Source of the DNA: Elusimicrobiales bacterium
GTDB lineage: Bacteria; Elusimicrobiota; Elusimicrobia; Elusimicrobiales; UBA9959
Assembly: GCA_031082205.1 (NCBI GenBank)
Contig: JAVHLJ010000007.1
Span: 51,339 to 86,305 of the forward strand
Length of the DNA: 34,967 nucleotides
Direction of reading: 5' to 3'
Below, in pieces: positions 6,914-19,311 of this stretch; position 1 is the first letter of the stretch, and each line of letters begins with the position of its first letter. The notes under the pieces are model-generated. The model did no database searches, had not been told where the DNA came from, and worked only from the letters and a program-made list of their open reading frames with translations. The translations under genes were made by a program, and so were the position numbers.

Positions 6914-9094
6914 TTGAAAGAGATCAAACCGGTCAGGATAGCGGTGCTGGCTTCCGGCGGCGGGAGCAACCTGCAGGCGATAATGGACGCCTGCGCCTCG
7001 GGACGGGTCGGCGGCGAGGTCTCGCTCGTCGTCTCCAGCCTCAAAAAAGCCGGCTCCCTGGAGCGCGCGGCCAGGGCCGGGATCAGGGCCGAGACCCTGC
7101 CGCTAAAGGATTCTCCTTCTCCCGAAGCGCACGACGAGGCGCTGACCGAGCTCTGCCGCGGGGCCGACCTGGTCTGCCTGGCGGGCTGGACGCTCAAGCT
7201 CGGCCCTAAATTCCTTTCGGCCTTCAAGGGCCGCATCCTCAATATCCATCCAGCCCTGCTGCCGGCCTTCGGAGGCAAGGGATTCTACGGGATGAAAGTG
7301 CACGAGGCCGTGACAGCCGCCGGCGTCCGGCTGAGCGGCTGCACGGTCCATTTCGTCACGGAGGATTACGATTCCGGGCCGATAATAATGCAGCGTTCGG
7401 TGCCGGTCTTTTCCGACGACACGCCGGCCTCGCTGGCAGCCAGGGTCAACGCCGCCGAGCTCGAGGCCTATCCCGCCGCCGTCTCGCTGTTCTGCGACGG
7501 CCTGCTGGAACTCAAAGGAGGCCGCGTCCTGGTAAAGCGGGCCCCCGCCGACGGCCGCGCGCGGCGCGCGCTGGTCTCTCTCTCGGACAAGACGGGCGCC
7601 GTCGATTTCGCGCGCGCCCTCTCCGCCAGGGGAGTGGAGGTCGTTTCCACCTCGGGCACGTACAAGCTGCTCAAAGAGGCCGGCCTGCCGGTGAGGCCGC
7701 TGGAATCGCTGACCGGCTTCCCGGAGATACTCGACGGCCGCGTGAAGACGCTGCAGCCGGCGGTGCACGGCGGCATACTCTACCGCCGCGACCGGGAAGC
7801 CCACGCCGAGCAGCTTTTCCGCCACGGCATAGAGCCGATAGACATCGTGGCGGTAAATCTTTACCCGTTCGAGAAGACCGCCGCCAAGGCCCGGGCCTGG
7901 TCGGAGGAGCTTATAGAGGATATAGACATAGGCGGCGTGGCGCTGCTGCGGGCTTCGGCCAAGAACTGCGCCTCGGTCACCGTGCTCACCGATCCGGCCG
8001 ATTATCCGCGCGTCCTGGACGCGCTCGACGCCAACAAGGGCAGGGTTCCCGAGGCGCTCAACCGCGAGCTGGCGGTGAAGGCTTTCGAGCTTACCTCGTC
8101 CTACGACGCGGCCATAGCCGGCAAGCTGGGCGAGGAGCCTCTCTCCTGCGAGTTCTTTCCGTCCCGGCTGAAAGCTCCGCTCAACAAGATCTGCGACCTG
8201 CGCTACGGCGAGAACCCTCATCAGCGCGCGGCGCTTTATTCCAGGAACCCGGGGCTGCCCTTCGAGAAACTCGCTGGCAAGGACCTCTCGTACAATAACA
8301 TCCTCGACGCCTACGGCACCTGGCAGGCGGTCAGCGAGTTCGAGGCCCCGGCCTGCGTCATATTCAAGCACGTCACTCCGTGCGGCCTGGGCACCGGCTC
8401 CAATATCCGAGAGGCTTTCGAGCGGGCCTGGAACACCGACCCGCTTTCCGCCTTCGGGGGCATAATAGCGGTGAACCGCACCTTCGACCGGAGCATGGCC
8501 GAGTTCCTGGCCAAGCGTTTCGTCGAGGTGATATGCGCGCCGGACTTCGACGGGGAATCTGTCCGCCTCTTCTCCAAGAAGCCGAACCTGCGCCTGCTCA
8601 AGTGGGAGGCGCTGCCCAAGGGCCGTCTTATGTTCCGCTCGCTGGGCGACGAGGTCCTGGTCAGCGAGGACGACGAGCGTCTGCTGGGCGACAAGTGGGA
8701 AGTCCCCACCGTAAAAAAGCCCTCGAAGGCCGAGGAGGAGGCGCTGCGCCTGGCCTGGGCGGCCTGCAAGTACGTGCGCTCCAACGCCATAGTCCTGTCG
8801 GACCGGCATCAGACCGTCGCGATAGGCGCGGGCCAGATGTCGCGGGTGGATTCCGTCTTCATGGCGGGACGAAAACTGGGTCTTTATTTGAAGGACAATC
8901 CGAAGCCGGAGGTCATGGTCATGGCCTCCGACGCGTTCTTCCCTTTCCCCGACGCGCTGGAAGAGGGGGTCAGGCTGGGCGCCACGGCCGTGATACAGCC
9001 CGGCGGCTCGGTCAAGGACGCCGAGGTGATAGCGGCCGCCGACCGGCTGGGCGTCTCAATGGTGCTGACCGGGCTCCGTCACTTCCGCCACTGA
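6914..9094 (+). CDS. purN-purH: Bifunctional fusion: PurN (GAR transformylase) + PurH (AICAR transformylase/IMP cyclohydrolase)
   Basis: One 726-residue frame carries two enzymes. Residues 6-200 are PurN: LASGGGSNLQAI binds substrate phosphate, NIHPALLPAF supplies Asn110 and His112, and YDSGPII supplies Asp153, the catalytic trio of 10-formyl-THF-dependent GAR transformylase. From about residue 215, RRALVSLSDKTGAVDFA starts the IMP cyclohydrolase domain, with STSGTYKLLKEAG and GRVKTLQPAVHGG. The AICAR transformylase domain has GENPHQRAAL, FKHVTPCGLG (Lys485-His486) and RSNAIVL. It thus covers steps 3, 9 and 10 of purine synthesis. The start is TTG at 6914 with GGAGG at 6904-6908; there is no ATG that keeps the PurN glycine loop. 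The linker is short (about 15 residues) and basic. PurN and PurH are normally separate proteins in bacteria. Confidence 0.93.
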   Translation: MKEIKPVRIAVLASGGGSNLQAIMDACASGRVGGEVSLVVSSLKKAGSLERAARAGIRAETLPLKDSPSPEAHDEALTELCRGADLVCLAGWTLKLGPKFLSAFKGRILNIHPALLPAFGGKGFYGMKVHEAVTAAGVRLSGCTVHFVTEDYDSGPIIMQRSVPVFSDDTPASLAARVNAAELEAYPAAVSLFCDGLLELKGGRVLVKRAPADGRARRALVSLSDKTGAVDFARALSARGVEVVSTSGTYKLLKEAGLPVRPLESLTGFPEILDGRVKTLQPAVHGGILYRRDREAHAEQLFRHGIEPIDIVAVNLYPFEKTAAKARAWSEELIEDIDIGGVALLRASAKNCASVTVLTDPADYPRVLDALDANKGRVPEALNRELAVKAFELTSSYDAAIAGKLGEEPLSCEFFPSRLKAPLNKICDLRYGENPHQRAALYSRNPGLPFEKLAGKDLSYNNILDAYGTWQAVSEFEAPACVIFKHVTPCGLGTGSNIREAFERAWNTDPLSAFGGIIAVNRTFDRSMAEFLAKRFVEVICAPDFDGESVRLFSKKPNLRLLKWEALPKGRLMFRSLGDEVLVSEDDERLLGDKWEVPTVKKPSKAEEEALRLAWAACKYVRSNAIVLSDRHQTVAIGAGQMSRVDSVFMAGRKLGLYLKDNPKPEVMVMASDAFFPFPDALEEGVRLGATAVIQPGGSVKDAEVIAAADRLGVSMVLTGLRHFRH

Positions 9095-9095
9095 A

Positions 9096-9431
9096 ATGAA
9101 CTTCGGCGATTTCGGGGCGGTGACGCCCGCCAAGACAGAGGAACTGCGGCGCAGGATAGCCAGGCTGGGCCTGGACCTCCGCCTGGTCGAAGAGAAGTCG
9201 GTGAAGGGCGGGGGGAAGGGCGGCCAGAAGATCAACAAGACCGCCAGCTCCGTTCAGCTCAAATACCCGCCGCTGGGCCTTTTCGTCCGGTGTCAGCGCG
9301 AGCGCAGCCGCGCCGTCAACCGCTTCCTGGCCCTGCGCGAGCTGGTCGACCGGGCCGAGATGGTCCTGGCCCCCGCGACCTCGGCGCGGCTGGCGGAATA
9401 CGAGCGCCTGCGCCGAAAAAAACACCGCTGA
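9096..9431 (+). CDS. Small RF-1-domain (GGQ) peptide chain release factor-like protein
   Basis: A 111-residue protein that holds only the catalytic domain of class I release factors. [18 protein letters not shown] (about residues 38-55) contains GGQ at 42-44, the loop that triggers peptidyl-tRNA hydrolysis in the ribosome. The codon-reading domains of RF1/RF2 are absent, as in ArfB/YaeJ and MTRFR-type rescue factors. The C-terminus is short and basic (ERLRRKKHR), compared with the longer basic tail by which ArfB enters the mRNA channel. This suggests a role in ribosome rescue or release of nascent chains, but this is family inference. The ATG comes one base after the purN-purH stop, so translational coupling is likely. 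Confidence 0.8.
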
Positions 9432-9455
9432 GAAAGCGATGGGGCGCCGGCAAAG

Positions 9456-9486: not shown

Positions 9487-11904
9487 ATGGAAAGGATCGT
9501 TTTCTTCGGCAAAGGCGGGATAGGAAAGAGCACTATCGCCGCGAACCTGAGCGCGGCGCTCGCCGCCCGCGGCGGCCGCGTGCTTCATATCGGCTGCGAT
9601 CCCAAATCCGATTCCACGGTGTCCCTGGCCGGCCGCCAGGTGCCGCCTTTTTCACCGGCCGCCGGGGGCGGGCCCGGCTCCGTTATCTCCTGCGTGCATC
9701 CTTCCAGGGTAAAAGGCGTAGACTGCATGGAGGCCGGCGGTCCGAAACCCGGAATGGGCTGCGCCGGCGCCGGAATAGGCGCTATGCTGGACGCCATCGG
9801 GGATAGCGGCCTCCTCGAAAAAGGGGGATATTCCGCGGCCGTATTCGACGTGCTGGGCGACGTGGTCTGCGGTGGTTTCGCGGCCCCGCTGCGGGCCGGT
9901 TTCGCCGGCAAGGCCGTAATAGTCACTTCCGAGGAATCCCTTTCCCTCTACGCCGCAAATAAGCTCATGGCGATGGTGAAGAACTACTCCCGCAACGGAG
10001 TCCGCCTGGCCGGTCTGGCCGCCAACCTGAAGGACCCGGCGGGCGAGAAGAGGGTCAGGGAGTTCGCCGCGGCGGCCGGGACCCGGGTGCTGGGAGTGCT
10101 GCTGCGCGACCCCGCCGTCACTTCGGCCGAGAGGCTGGGGCGCCCCGCCGCGCTGCTCTTTCCGCGCAGCGATTTCGCCCGCCGGCTGGTGAAGCTGGCC
10201 GCCGCCATAAAGGCGCCGGCCCCCGCGGGAGGCTTCGCTCCGCTCACCGACCACGCCTTCGCGGAGTTCGCGGCCGGCCGGCCTTTTTCCGGAGGCAGGC
10301 CGCCCGGCGGGGGCAGGTCCGTCCGCTCACGGCCCCCCGCCGCGGCCGAAGCCCTGAAAGCCGCCGGCTTCGAGCCCGCCGGCGTGATCAAAGGCCAGCT
10401 CGTCTACGACTGGCGCCGCGGCAGGTCGCGCTACCGGGTCATCGTCGCCGAGGGGATGGCGGCGCGCCCCGGCATGAACCACGTCTCCGACTGGGCCGTC
10501 TGTTTCCATCCCGACATGCGCGGTCTGCCGGCGCTGGACGGAGGGGAGCTGGCGGCGGCCGCGGGAGGTCTATCCCATCTCTCCTTCGCCGACCTTCTGG
10601 CCTGCCACGGCTTGAGCGGTACGCGGCCCGCGCCGCCGGCCCACCTGCCGCAGTCGGACGATATCATCGATTCGCCCCCGGGTTCTGGGCAATGGAGGGG
10701 TTTCCTGCTGGGCCGTTCGAGGCGGGAATGCGCCGTCCCGCCCGGGTCAGTCATGGTGGAGCACGGCGACTCCGACTGCCTCTTTTCCTCGTGCATAGGC
10801 GGCAGGCTCAACATGTTCAGGGGCGAGCAGGCCGCCTCCGGCCCCGGGCCGGTCTTCCCGAAGGGAGAGCCGGGCACTGCCAACACCGGTTTTTCGGACG
10901 GCGACGCCGCCGGCGGGGACGAGGACAGGATACTCGGAGCCATGACAGCGGCCGGCCGGGCCGCGGGCCCCGGCGCTCTGGTGGAATTCTACACCGGCTG
11001 CTCGCCGATGCTGCTGGCCTCCGACAGCGCCGCTCTGGCGGCCGAAGCCCGGAGGCTGACCGGGGCCGCCGTGCGGCTGGAACCATACAACAATTTCACC
11101 GCCCCTGCGGAGGAGAAGGTCAAGGCCAGGGCGGCTTTCATGGCCTCCAGGTTCAAGGCGGCCGCCAGGCGCCCGAAGGCCGACGTCAATATCGCGGGGG
11201 GCGGCGCCGCGCCGGCCCCGCTGCTCCGCCTGCTGGACAGGCTCGGAGTATCCGTGGTTCCCGCCGGCGCGGATTTTTACGAAGCCGCCGCCTCCGCAAG
11301 GCTGCAGGTGCTGGAGCGGCCGGACCCGGCGCTTTGCCCGGCGCTGGACCGCGCGGGGCTTAAATGGACCGTCCCGCCCGCTCCCTACGGTTTCGCGGGG
11401 ACTTCGGCCTGGGCGGCCGACATACTAAAGGGACTGGGCCGCCCGGGGAGGGCCGCCCCTTCGCCCGCTGAAAAAAAGGCCGCCGCCGCGCTGCGCGCGG
11501 CAGCCGCCGGAACGGGGGCCTGCTTCATCTGCGAGGCGGAACAGGTGGAGGGGCTGCTCTCCGGCGCCGCTTTCGGCGGTCCGCGCCTGCCTGCCGCGCT
11601 GGAGGAGGCGGGTTTCGGGGTCAGCGTATTCGTCAGGGGCGAAGGGCCGCTGCCGCCCCGTTCCCGGGAGCGGTCCTGGCGCGTCGTCCGCTTTTCCTCC
11701 GACGGGGAATTGAGCGGGCTTCTGAAGAAAACCGGGGGGCTGCGCCTTGTCTATTCCGACATAGAGATGGACCGCCGTGTCCTGGAGGCGGGCAAGATCC
11801 CTTTCTCGCTTTCCGTTCTCCTGCCCGGCTACGAGGGGGCGCTGGAAACCTGCCGCAGGCTGCTGCGCCTGGCCCGCTGGGATTACCATGGAACATACCT
11901 TTAA
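9487..11904 (+). CDS. Nitrogenase-family fusion protein: NifH-like reductase joined to NifD-like component
   Basis: The 805-residue protein starts [16 protein letters not shown], a canonical NifH/BchL P-loop. NifH features continue: CDPKSDST (37-44, switch I), Cys92 in GMGCAGAG and Cys128 in [11 protein letters not shown] (121-131, switch II), matching the two [4Fe-4S] ligands per subunit, and LYAANKL. The residue equal to NifH Arg100 is Ala95. The NifH-like part ends near 262. A Pro/Gly/Arg linker leads to an unrecognised segment (about 281-410), then a nitrogenase component 1 fold: Cys415 (RREC), Cys431 in EHGDSDC, Cys505 in YTGCSPMLL, and the terminal [10 protein letters not shown] block. 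The three cysteines correspond to the P-cluster-side ligands of NifD/BchN. The FeMo-cofactor ligands Cys275 and His442 have no counterpart. ATG 9487 is preferred; an ATG at 9439 would add 16 residues. Likely an ATP-driven, low-potential reductase of unknown substrate. Confidence 0.9.
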
Positions 11905-13156
11905 GAAAGCCGAAAGCCCCCTGTCGATGCCGGCCCAGCTGGGGATCTTCCTCGCCGCCAACGCCGTGAGCGACGCGGTGCTGGCCGTGGACGGCCTGCA
12001 CTGCGCCATACACAAGGCCGATTACATAGCCGGCAATCACGACCTGCGCTCCACGCTGCTTTCTGACGACGGGAGGCACCGGGTTCTTTACTCCATGGCG
12101 GCGCCCCTGCCGCAGGAGAGGGACCCGGAGGGCCGGCTCGCCGGTTTCCTGCGCGCCTCCGCCGGCTCGCCCGGCGCGGGGGTGGTACTTCTGACCGCCC
12201 TGCCTTTCCTGAAACTGACGGGAGCGGATTACTCCGGCCTGGCGGCCGCCGCCGGGGAACGGGTCCCCGTGGCGGACGCGGTGCCATCCTCGATGGAGGC
12301 GGACTGGCTGGACGGCTACGCCCTGGCGCTCGACGCTCTCGTCAGGGCGCTGGGCCCGCGGAAGACGAAAAAGAACCGGCGCGACGTGGCCCTGGTCGGG
12401 TACATGTACGATCGTGGCGAAGGGGATCACGCCGGAAATATCGCCGAACTGGGGCGGCTGCTGGGCGCCTGCGGGCTGCGGCTGCGCTGCGTGCTGCCTT
12501 CCGGCGCCGCCTTCCGGGACCTGTCGGCGGCGCTGGAGGCCGGGGTGGTGGTCTCGCTGCCTTACGGCCGGGAAGCCGCGGCCAGGCTGGCCTCCGCCTC
12601 CGGCGCGCGGCTGGTCGAAACCGGGCTGCCGATGGGTTTCGCGGGAACGGCGCGCTGGCTCGAGTCCGTCTGCGCCGCGGCGGGAGTGAAGCCCCCGTCA
12701 TCCGCCGCGCGCCTGAGGCGGGAGGCGGCTCTCTCCGCCGCCCCCGCGCTGCGCGCCCTGGCGAACCGGAAGGCCGCCTTCTTCGGGGATCCCTGGCTAT
12801 TCGGGGCTTTCGCCGGTTTCGCGGAAGAGCTCTGCATGACGGCGCCCTTCGCCGTCCTCGCCTGCCGGCCGCGCGGGCTTTCGCTGCGGGAGGTCCCGGA
12901 GCTGCTTCTTTTCTCTCCGCGCGCGGGGGAGGCCAGGGAGGCCCTGGCCTCGTTTCCCGGCTGCGGCGGCCCCGACCTGGCGGTCGGCAACTCTTTCTGG
13001 AGGTCGGAAGGCCTGGCGCCGGGCCTTCCTTTCATGGAATTCGGTTTTCCTTCCTACGGGCGCCACGCCTTGTCGGCGGAGCCTTTCCTCGGTTATGAAG
13101 GGGCCGTGCGGCTGGTTTCGCGCCTGCTGAACACGCTGCAGTCCGGCGCCGGCTGA
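11888..13156 (+). CDS. NifK/NifE/BchB-like nitrogenase component 1 partner
   Basis: The 422-residue frame overlaps the NifH-D-like gene by 17 bases (ATG at 11888), so the two are surely co-translated. Component 1 landmarks appear in order: [13 protein letters not shown] with Cys39 at the place of the second NifK cysteine, [16 protein letters not shown] where the third cysteine would be but is Ala, ADAVPSS and a [10 protein letters not shown] helix, [11 protein letters not shown] opening the second Rossmann domain, [34 protein letters not shown] opening the third, and [11 protein letters not shown] with [10 protein letters not shown] at the end. The first NifK cysteine position is about Met14. 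With one cysteine it cannot share a P-cluster as NifK does, but it could donate a fourth ligand to a [4Fe-4S] cluster held by the NifD-like part. Homology is clear; function is unknown. Confidence 0.88.
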
Positions 13157-18237: not shown

Positions 18238-19311
18238 TCAGGACTTGTCGATGCCGATGTTCCTGAGGGCCTCTTCGGCCAGGACCTTGGTCGCCTTGCC
18301 TATGTCCCCGATGGAGCGGGCCAGCGAGTCGTCCGTGTCGGCGCCCTCCGGCTCCGAGACCTCGAAGCGGCGCATCTTGTCGGTTATGTCCAGGGCCAGG
18401 CGCAGCGCCTTGAGCCCCTTCTCGCCGCTGGGCGTGGGCGTCTTGGAGGTGCGTATGCAGTCTATGAAATGGTTGAGCTCCTCGCGTATGGGCTGCTTGG
18501 GCTCGAGCTTGGGGTAGGTTATCTCGATATCCTTCAGCGTTTTTATCGTGGGGACCTTCTTGCGGTAGATCTTGAGACGGGCGCTGACATAGTCCACCGA
18601 GATGTAGGCGTCCTGCTGGTAGACGCGCATGCGGCGGGAGGCCTCCATCGTGGCCCGGCTGGCCGTGACGTCGGCGACGCAGCCGTTGCGGAACTTTATG
18701 CGGACATTGGAGATGTCCTCGTGGGCCGAGAGCATGCTGGCGCCTATCGCCTCGAAGGACTCGACCTCTGAGTCCATCATCGTAAGCAGGATGTCGAGGT
18801 CGTGTATCATCAGGTCCAGGGTCACGCCGGTGGCCGCGACGCGCGGGTCGAAGGGGCCGAGGCGCTCTATCGTTATGTAGCGGGGGTTCTTTATGTGCTT
18901 GAGGGTCTCTACCACCGCGGGGTTGAAACGCTCGGAGTGGCCCACCTGCAGGACCGCCTTCTTCTTCTCGGACATCTCGAGCAGCTTGCGGGCGCCTTCC
19001 TCGGAATTGGTGATCGGCTTCTCCATCAGGACGTGCACGCCGGCGCCCAGCGCCTTGAGGCCTATCTCGGCGTGGTACTCGGTGGGGGCGGCCACCACCA
19101 GGGCGTCCACCTGGGGGAGCAGGTCGGCGTAGTCCTTGTACGCGATGCAGTTGTACTGCCAGGCCAGGACCTGGGAGCGGCGGAGGTTGGGGTCGGCCAC
19201 GCCGACCAGCTCTACCTCCGGCATCATGGAAAGGGTGCGGGTATGGAAGCCGCCCAGCTTGCCGGCGCCGACTACGCCGAACTTGAGTTTCTTGGGTTTG
19301 TTCTCCGACAT
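18238..19311 (-). CDS. Gfo/Idh/MocA family NAD(P)-dependent oxidoreductase, possibly GnnA-like
   Basis: A 357-residue protein with a Rossmann N-terminus (FGVVGAGKLGGFHTRTL), the family EKP motif in VLMEKPITNSEEGA, the following QVGHSERFNPA, and DLMIHDLDILL in the catalytic helix (Lys, Asp and His of the family). Members oxidise or reduce sugar hydroxyls or imines. Gfo/Idh genes beside lpxA/lpxB in other bacteria include gnnA, which oxidises the 3-OH of UDP-GlcNAc so that GnnB can place an amino group for amide-linked lipid A. No gnnB-type aminotransferase is in this window, so GnnA is only a hypothesis. AGGAG precedes the ATG. It opens the minus-strand operon with lpxB, msbA, ZIP and RSH. Confidence 0.85.
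   Translation of the reverse strand: MSENKPKKLKFGVVGAGKLGGFHTRTLSMMPEVELVGVADPNLRRSQVLAWQYNCIAYKDYADLLPQVDALVVAAPTEYHAEIGLKALGAGVHVLMEKPITNSEEGARKLLEMSEKKKAVLQVGHSERFNPAVVETLKHIKNPRYITIERLGPFDPRVAATGVTLDLMIHDLDILLTMMDSEVESFEAIGASMLSAHEDISNVRIKFRNGCVADVTASRATMEASRRMRVYQQDAYISVDYVSARLKIYRKKVPTIKTLKDIEITYPKLEPKQPIREELNHFIDCIRTSKTPTPSGEKGLKALRLALDITDKMRRFEVSEPEGADTDDSLARSIGDIGKATKVLAEEALRNIGIDKS

Follow-up and report, generated by a model that had tools for sequence, protein, structure and literature searches.

In the studied members of the nitrogenase superfamily, the Fe protein (H) is separate from component 1, docking and leaving at each electron transfer. MarHDK and IsrHDK are non-N2 reductases whose HDK subunits are linked to a radical-SAM protein (PMC11423573), and Mar uses nitrogenase metalloclusters (PMC12552129). 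The cluster of DPOR (BchLNB) is held by three Cys residues of BchN and one Asp residue of BchB, and the cysteine set of IsrDK, with one plus three Cys residues, is incomplete (PMC11423573). Group VI comprises nitrogenase paralogues already known from Elusimicrobiota (Meheust et al. 2020, ISME J, as cited in PMC11257099), and a potential involvement in modifying tetrapyrroles has been ascribed to it (PMC11257099). A "fused nifH/nifE" of Ca. M. intestinalis appears in another paper (PMC4153887) as one table entry without analysis; similarly to the protein described here, it combines a reductase with a component-1 protein, but it is archaeal. The fused NifEN (PDB 9i0g) joins two component-1 proteins but contains no H. 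The literature search for an H-D fusion returned the one nifH/nifE table entry, with the original description of group VI lying outside that search. Group VI, as described by Meheust et al., reportedly has radical-SAM neighbors and occurs in Myxococcales as well.

The window, i.e., the whole stretch of 34,967 nucleotides analyzed here, is part of contig C77 of an Elusimicrobiales genome that has 2.75 Mb and is rated 100% complete. By description, rather than by placement in a tree, its HDK family matches group VI: it belongs to the same phylum, represents a non-Nif HDK, and has relatives with radical-SAM neighbors, found in Elusimicrobiota and Myxococcota alike. The earlier note had pointed to divergent nitrogenase paralogues of Elusimicrobiota; this lead was right, and the family has already been reported as group VI (PMC11257099). 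The window differs from that description in having no radical-SAM gene adjacent to HDK and in belonging to a genome without HemB and HemC, which is at odds with the tetrapyrrole proposal.

The HD and K genes

The HD frame is uninterrupted from its ATG to the stop codon (Table 1). An alternative in-frame ATG at position 9439 would give a product of 821 aa; the ATG at 9487 is preferred because this start position is common to most relatives. The K gene, which also starts with ATG, is in a different frame, and its first 17 bases are shared with the end of the HD gene.

Table 1. Features of the HDK locus (positions in the window)
Feature	Position	Strand	Remarks
HD fusion gene	9487..11904	+	805 aa: NifH-type ATPase, extra alpha/beta domain, NifD-type domain
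H domain, residues 2-258	9490..10260	+	Profile match and structure model
C92, predicted [4Fe-4S] ligand of H domain (NifH C97 position)	9760..9762	+	48/48 fusions
C128, predicted [4Fe-4S] ligand of H domain (NifH C132 position)	9868..9870	+	48/48 fusions
Extra alpha/beta domain, residues about 280-375	10324..10611	+	Between H and D; no match in Pfam search
D domain, residues 396-805	10672..11901	+	Nitrogenase component-1 family
C431, corresponding to NifD C88 and the second Cys of BchN	10777..10779	+	75/75 D sequences
C505, corresponding to NifD C154 and the third Cys of BchN	10999..11001	+	75/75 D sequences
K gene, NifK/BchB-type component 1	11888..13156	+	422 aa
K C39, taken as NifK C95 (Asp36 in BchB), with a one-position shift in one of the alignments	12002..12004	+	59/63 K proteins

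The N-terminal part of HD matches the NifH family in Pfam (residues 3-242, 185 bits), and the model of the H domain resembles Fe proteins with target-normalized TM scores of about 0.9 (9fmg_D, 0.90; 1cp2, 0.89). Among solved structures, H is best matched by the reductase in the Mar complex 9fmg, with 36% identity in the structural alignment. For the D part, the scores lie around the Oxidored_nitro cut-off of 28.6 bits, at 27.3 bits in the hmmscan search of Pfam (residues 422-670) and 28.9 bits in the genome search; profile-profile comparison with NifD, NifE, BchN, and BchY gave a probability of 99.6%. Judged by these profiles, D is a true relative of component 1. Confidence in the HD model is good for most of H and D and low between the domains (pTM 0.51); the top 50 matches that Foldseek listed for it are Fe proteins only. 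Residues 108-417 of K match the component-1 family in Pfam (127 bits), and the predicted K model (pLDDT 88.5) has a component-1 fold, with TM scores to NifK, AnfK, and BchB of mostly 0.75-0.82, normalized by query length. The nitrogenase-like, non-Nif system that the earlier note had read here, with H and D in one 805-residue chain and an overlapping NifK-like gene, is thus borne out, including by the profile searches of both halves that it had proposed.

The same note had recognized the P-loop and both cluster cysteines of NifH, and these hold: the GKGGIGKST motif is invariant in 48/48 fusions, as are C92 and C128. The component-1 landmarks that it had seen in D stand for C431 and C505 but not for C415, which resembles the first P-cluster cysteine but has the wrong spacing and is a Cys in 1/48 fusions. 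The positions of NifD C62 and NifK C70 are lost in D and K, respectively, and position 108 of K (NifK C153), a Cys in 38/63 K proteins, is Leu in the window's K. Of the six P-cluster cysteines of nitrogenases, three each in D and K, three are thus left (C431 and C505 in D and C39 in K). Neither of the FeMo-co ligands NifD C275 and H442 is kept, the H442 column being a gap in 75/75 D sequences. Because the cysteine set is incomplete in both D and K, a P-cluster is unlikely, and one small Fe-S cluster at the D/K interface would be the simplest reading of the sequences. The type of this cluster and its ligation are uncertain, given that the window's K has no fourth cysteine.

The extra domain comprises about 95 residues of a whole intervening stretch of about 135-140. 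Its profile can be joined to the profile of the extension found at the N terminus of D proteins not fused to H via two intermediate fusions (E values of 1e-23 on one side and 1e-13 to 1e-15 on the other), and direct comparison of the two profiles is weak (14.8% probability). Since both profiles meet through these intermediates, the two domains are probably related. The domain found in the D extension also opens a radical-SAM protein that adjoins HDK in a Deltaproteobacteria MAG.

Relatives and their gene neighborhoods

The earlier note had suggested looking for the same fusion in related genomes. Among 341 genomes of the phylum, 48 fused HD ORFs of 739-882 aa were found in 35 Elusimicrobiota genomes, nearly all of them adjoining a K gene, which argues that the fusion is not an artefact. 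Full-length relatives share 42-51% identity within the family, and remoter ones occur elsewhere in the class. A single-protein scan of the genome contigs collection found no relative; a search with the K alignment found 43 loci. The named relatives come from Elusimicrobia MAGs and from MAGs of Myxococcota/Deltaproteobacteria, in which H and D are separate genes. Fusion of H with D is a common form of this family in Elusimicrobiota, not an isolated curiosity. The two trees, of H and of D, require four to five changes between the fused and unfused states, with L062_7, probably a fusion broken by a frameshift, scored as unfused in the H tree; at least two changes are forced by well-supported branches. 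The trees fit either one origin of the fusion with later splits or several origins.

Several individual loci deserve mention. An HD fusion has apparently been split by a frameshift into two ORFs in L062 (9353-11865) and L128 (3898-6410). The gene order is reversed, K preceding HD with a 4-base overlap, in L045, L047, L048, L056, L102-L104, and L106, and methyltransferase-family genes lie directly upstream of K in two of these loci. In a Myxococcales MAG, a 996-aa protein (L123:6913-9903) combines a radical-SAM domain with a nitrogenase component-1 (D) domain.

In the loci of relatives, whose genes were called with a self-trained coding model, radical-SAM motifs are encoded by 20% of the genes up to six positions from D on either side in the window's family, by 40-54% in the related families of the class, and by 52% in Myxococcota, against 4/104 genes further from D. 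Many of these neighbors resemble HxsC, and the His-Xaa-Ser system is also represented nearby by true HxsB and by HxsD-like proteins; the papers listed in a literature search on His-Xaa-Ser did not contain the term itself. In 17/42 genomes, an HxsB gene is found no more than 35 kb away from H or HD, compared with 2.1 expected under random placement, a null model to be read in light of the tendency of such islands to collect accessory genes. An obligatory role of HDK in the Hxs system was not adopted, because HxsB is encoded in nearly all genomes of the family, whether HDK is present or absent. A pair of ribonuclease-like and barstar-like genes is seen at the edge of one Hxs island (L102:8092-9029).

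The window itself has no radical-SAM gene; its genome has 53 radical-SAM matches. Another contig of the same genome (C44 of G000; L175/L176, 1-40000) is densely packed with radical-SAM genes over about 40 kb and also encodes two HxsB proteins that score above the cut-off, HxsD-like proteins, and an HxsA containing many His-Xaa-Ser repeats. In a congener, 17 bases separate the match to the right end of the window from the match to the beginning of C44. From this synteny, C77 and C44 can be inferred to join, which would put about 24 kb and an insertion between HDK and HxsB; the island probably starts just past the window's end. The first ORF of C44 looks like a transposase, which would explain the assembly break. 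The "minimal two-gene" form that the earlier note had proposed thus holds for this locus but not beyond it, as radical-SAM genes surround HDK in the relatives and an island of this kind exists in the genome of the window, too.

At the place where C44 has some 136 bases, the same congener has a cassette of about 5 kb with a methylase-like gene, K, and HD, and two congeners have no HDK between relA and purNH. The GC content of HDK is 70-73% (window positions 10000-13000), compared with 63-68% in the flanking bins. HDK thus looks like a small cassette that is gained at some sites and lost at others.

Possible functions of HDK

The preferred reading, to which a probability of roughly 55% can be assigned, is that HDK is an ATP-driven, group VI-type reductase that has a covalently tethered Fe protein and, between D and K, a small Fe-S cluster, and that acts on an organic substrate derived from radical-SAM chemistry. 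The H domain is predicted to bind ATP, and the H dimer to hold one [4Fe-4S] cluster; two Cys of D and one of K, with one more K Cys in many relatives, would be enough for one small Fe-S cluster. H would pass electrons singly, with ATP hydrolysis, to the D/K cluster, and from there they would reach an organic substrate in a D/K pocket without any FeMo-type cofactor. As the fusion would fix H:D at 1:1, an (HD)2K2 complex would have just one H dimer, which could dock and leave on its tether, and the folded domain between H and D may bind the substrate or a carrier. The least certain step is the substrate, which may be a product or intermediate of radical-SAM chemistry; a small molecule or a compound linked to a peptide or carrier would be more likely than a tetrapyrrole made by the cell itself. 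A tentative proposal is that the tethered-Fe-protein enzyme reduces an intermediate that is made by radical-SAM enzymes and linked to a peptide or carrier, within or close to a His-Xaa-Ser system, and neither a tetrapyrrole nor N2. If true, it would be the first link of the superfamily to peptide-type maturation.

As proposed for group VI, potential tetrapyrrole modifiers (PMC11257099), HDK might instead be a tetrapyrrole reductase or reductive cyclase, similar to DPOR, COR, or CfbCD, that helps to make a novel tetrapyrrole cofactor. The best scores of H and K are to CfbC (194 bits, cut-off 402) and BchB (49 bits, cut-off 509), respectively, and the fold of K is close to that of BchB. An ATP-driven Fe protein, a component 1 without FeMo-co, and a small interface Fe-S cluster would be shared with DPOR and CfbCD. 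HemN-like radical-SAM and TP_methylase-family genes lie near some relatives, and HemB is usually present where the relatives belong to other families of the class. This function is nevertheless rather doubtful, as HemB and HemC are both absent from the window's complete genome and from the complete HDK-bearing congeners G119 and G120. HemB is missing in 16 of the 22 HDK-bearing genomes of the family, and none of these 16 has a full-length HemC (one fragment-sized match was seen); the TP_methylase matches are far under the cobalamin methylase cut-offs (20 of 93 bits), and two of them look more like RsmI. HDK can therefore be kept without a tetrapyrrole pathway, and the published prediction for group VI is weakened on gene content; salvage, which the window's genome would need, remains compatible with these absences. 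Membership in DPOR or COR (BchLNB, BchXYZ) was rejected on the sub-cut-off scores (153 bits for H against bchL, cut-off 345), the absence of hemB and hemC, and the position of H outside BchL and BchX in the tree. Membership in CfbCD, which has only D and no K, was rejected on the CfbC score, the presence of the K gene, and the same absences. Further differences from DPOR and CfbCD are the two rather than three Cys in D, the H-D fusion, and the lack of a second component-1 gene.

Reduction of small organosulfur compounds, as by methylthio-alkane reductase (Mar) or isethionate reductase (Isr), would fit the HDK make-up, a non-N2 reductase, the radical-SAM link, and the Mar reductase as the best solved relative of H; the cysteine set of Isr is also incomplete (PMC11423573). 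It is unlikely, since Mar uses nitrogenase metalloclusters (PMC12552129), whose ligands, like NifB, are missing here; moreover, the cysteine sets differ, H, D, and K are separate in Mar and Isr, and no sulfur-assimilation gene was noticed adjoining HDK. HDK could also be a decaying or idle paralogue, outside the island, fast-evolving, and with the fourth cluster cysteine lost. The terminal branch of 0.86 in the D tree, longer than those of most kin, the Leu at K position 108, and the lack of the relatives' cassettes at the matching places of the genome's island would agree with decay, which is still very improbable: the full-length frames, invariant H residues, D cysteines, and gene overlap are all kept, and several other lineages whose frames are intact likewise have Leu or Met at position 108 of K. 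The chance of a true nitrogenase (Nif, Vnf, or Anf) or of an assembly or frameshift artefact is close to nil. Family resemblance is all that speaks for the former, which was rejected because nifB is absent genome-wide, no PF00148 gene (NifEN included) exists in the genome beyond HD and K, the FeMo-co ligands are lost, and half of the P-cluster cysteines are gone; an artefact is contradicted by the same fusion in 35 genomes. The lack of nifB and nifEN-type partners, observed in the window by the earlier note, thus extends to the entire genome, which has one further weak match to the NifH family.

The conserved fusion offers a natural protein for testing whether the Fe protein has to be released in every cycle. 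Most fusion-bearing genomes of the family lack HemB and HemC, which narrows what group VI enzymes may reduce, and the repeated radical-SAM/His-Xaa-Ser context provides concrete substrate candidates.

Other features of the window

Scans for Rfam families, tRNAs, and promoters were empty, and the terminator scan was at chance level. Directly upstream of HDK, positions 9096-9431 encode a 111-aa release-factor-like protein with a GGQ motif, a homologue of which is found between relA and purNH in the congener G120. PurN and PurH are fused in a 726-aa protein (6914-9094). A Gfo/Idh-family protein encoded at 18238-19311, beside lipid A genes, has UDP-GlcNAc 3-dehydrogenase as its best NCBIfam match.
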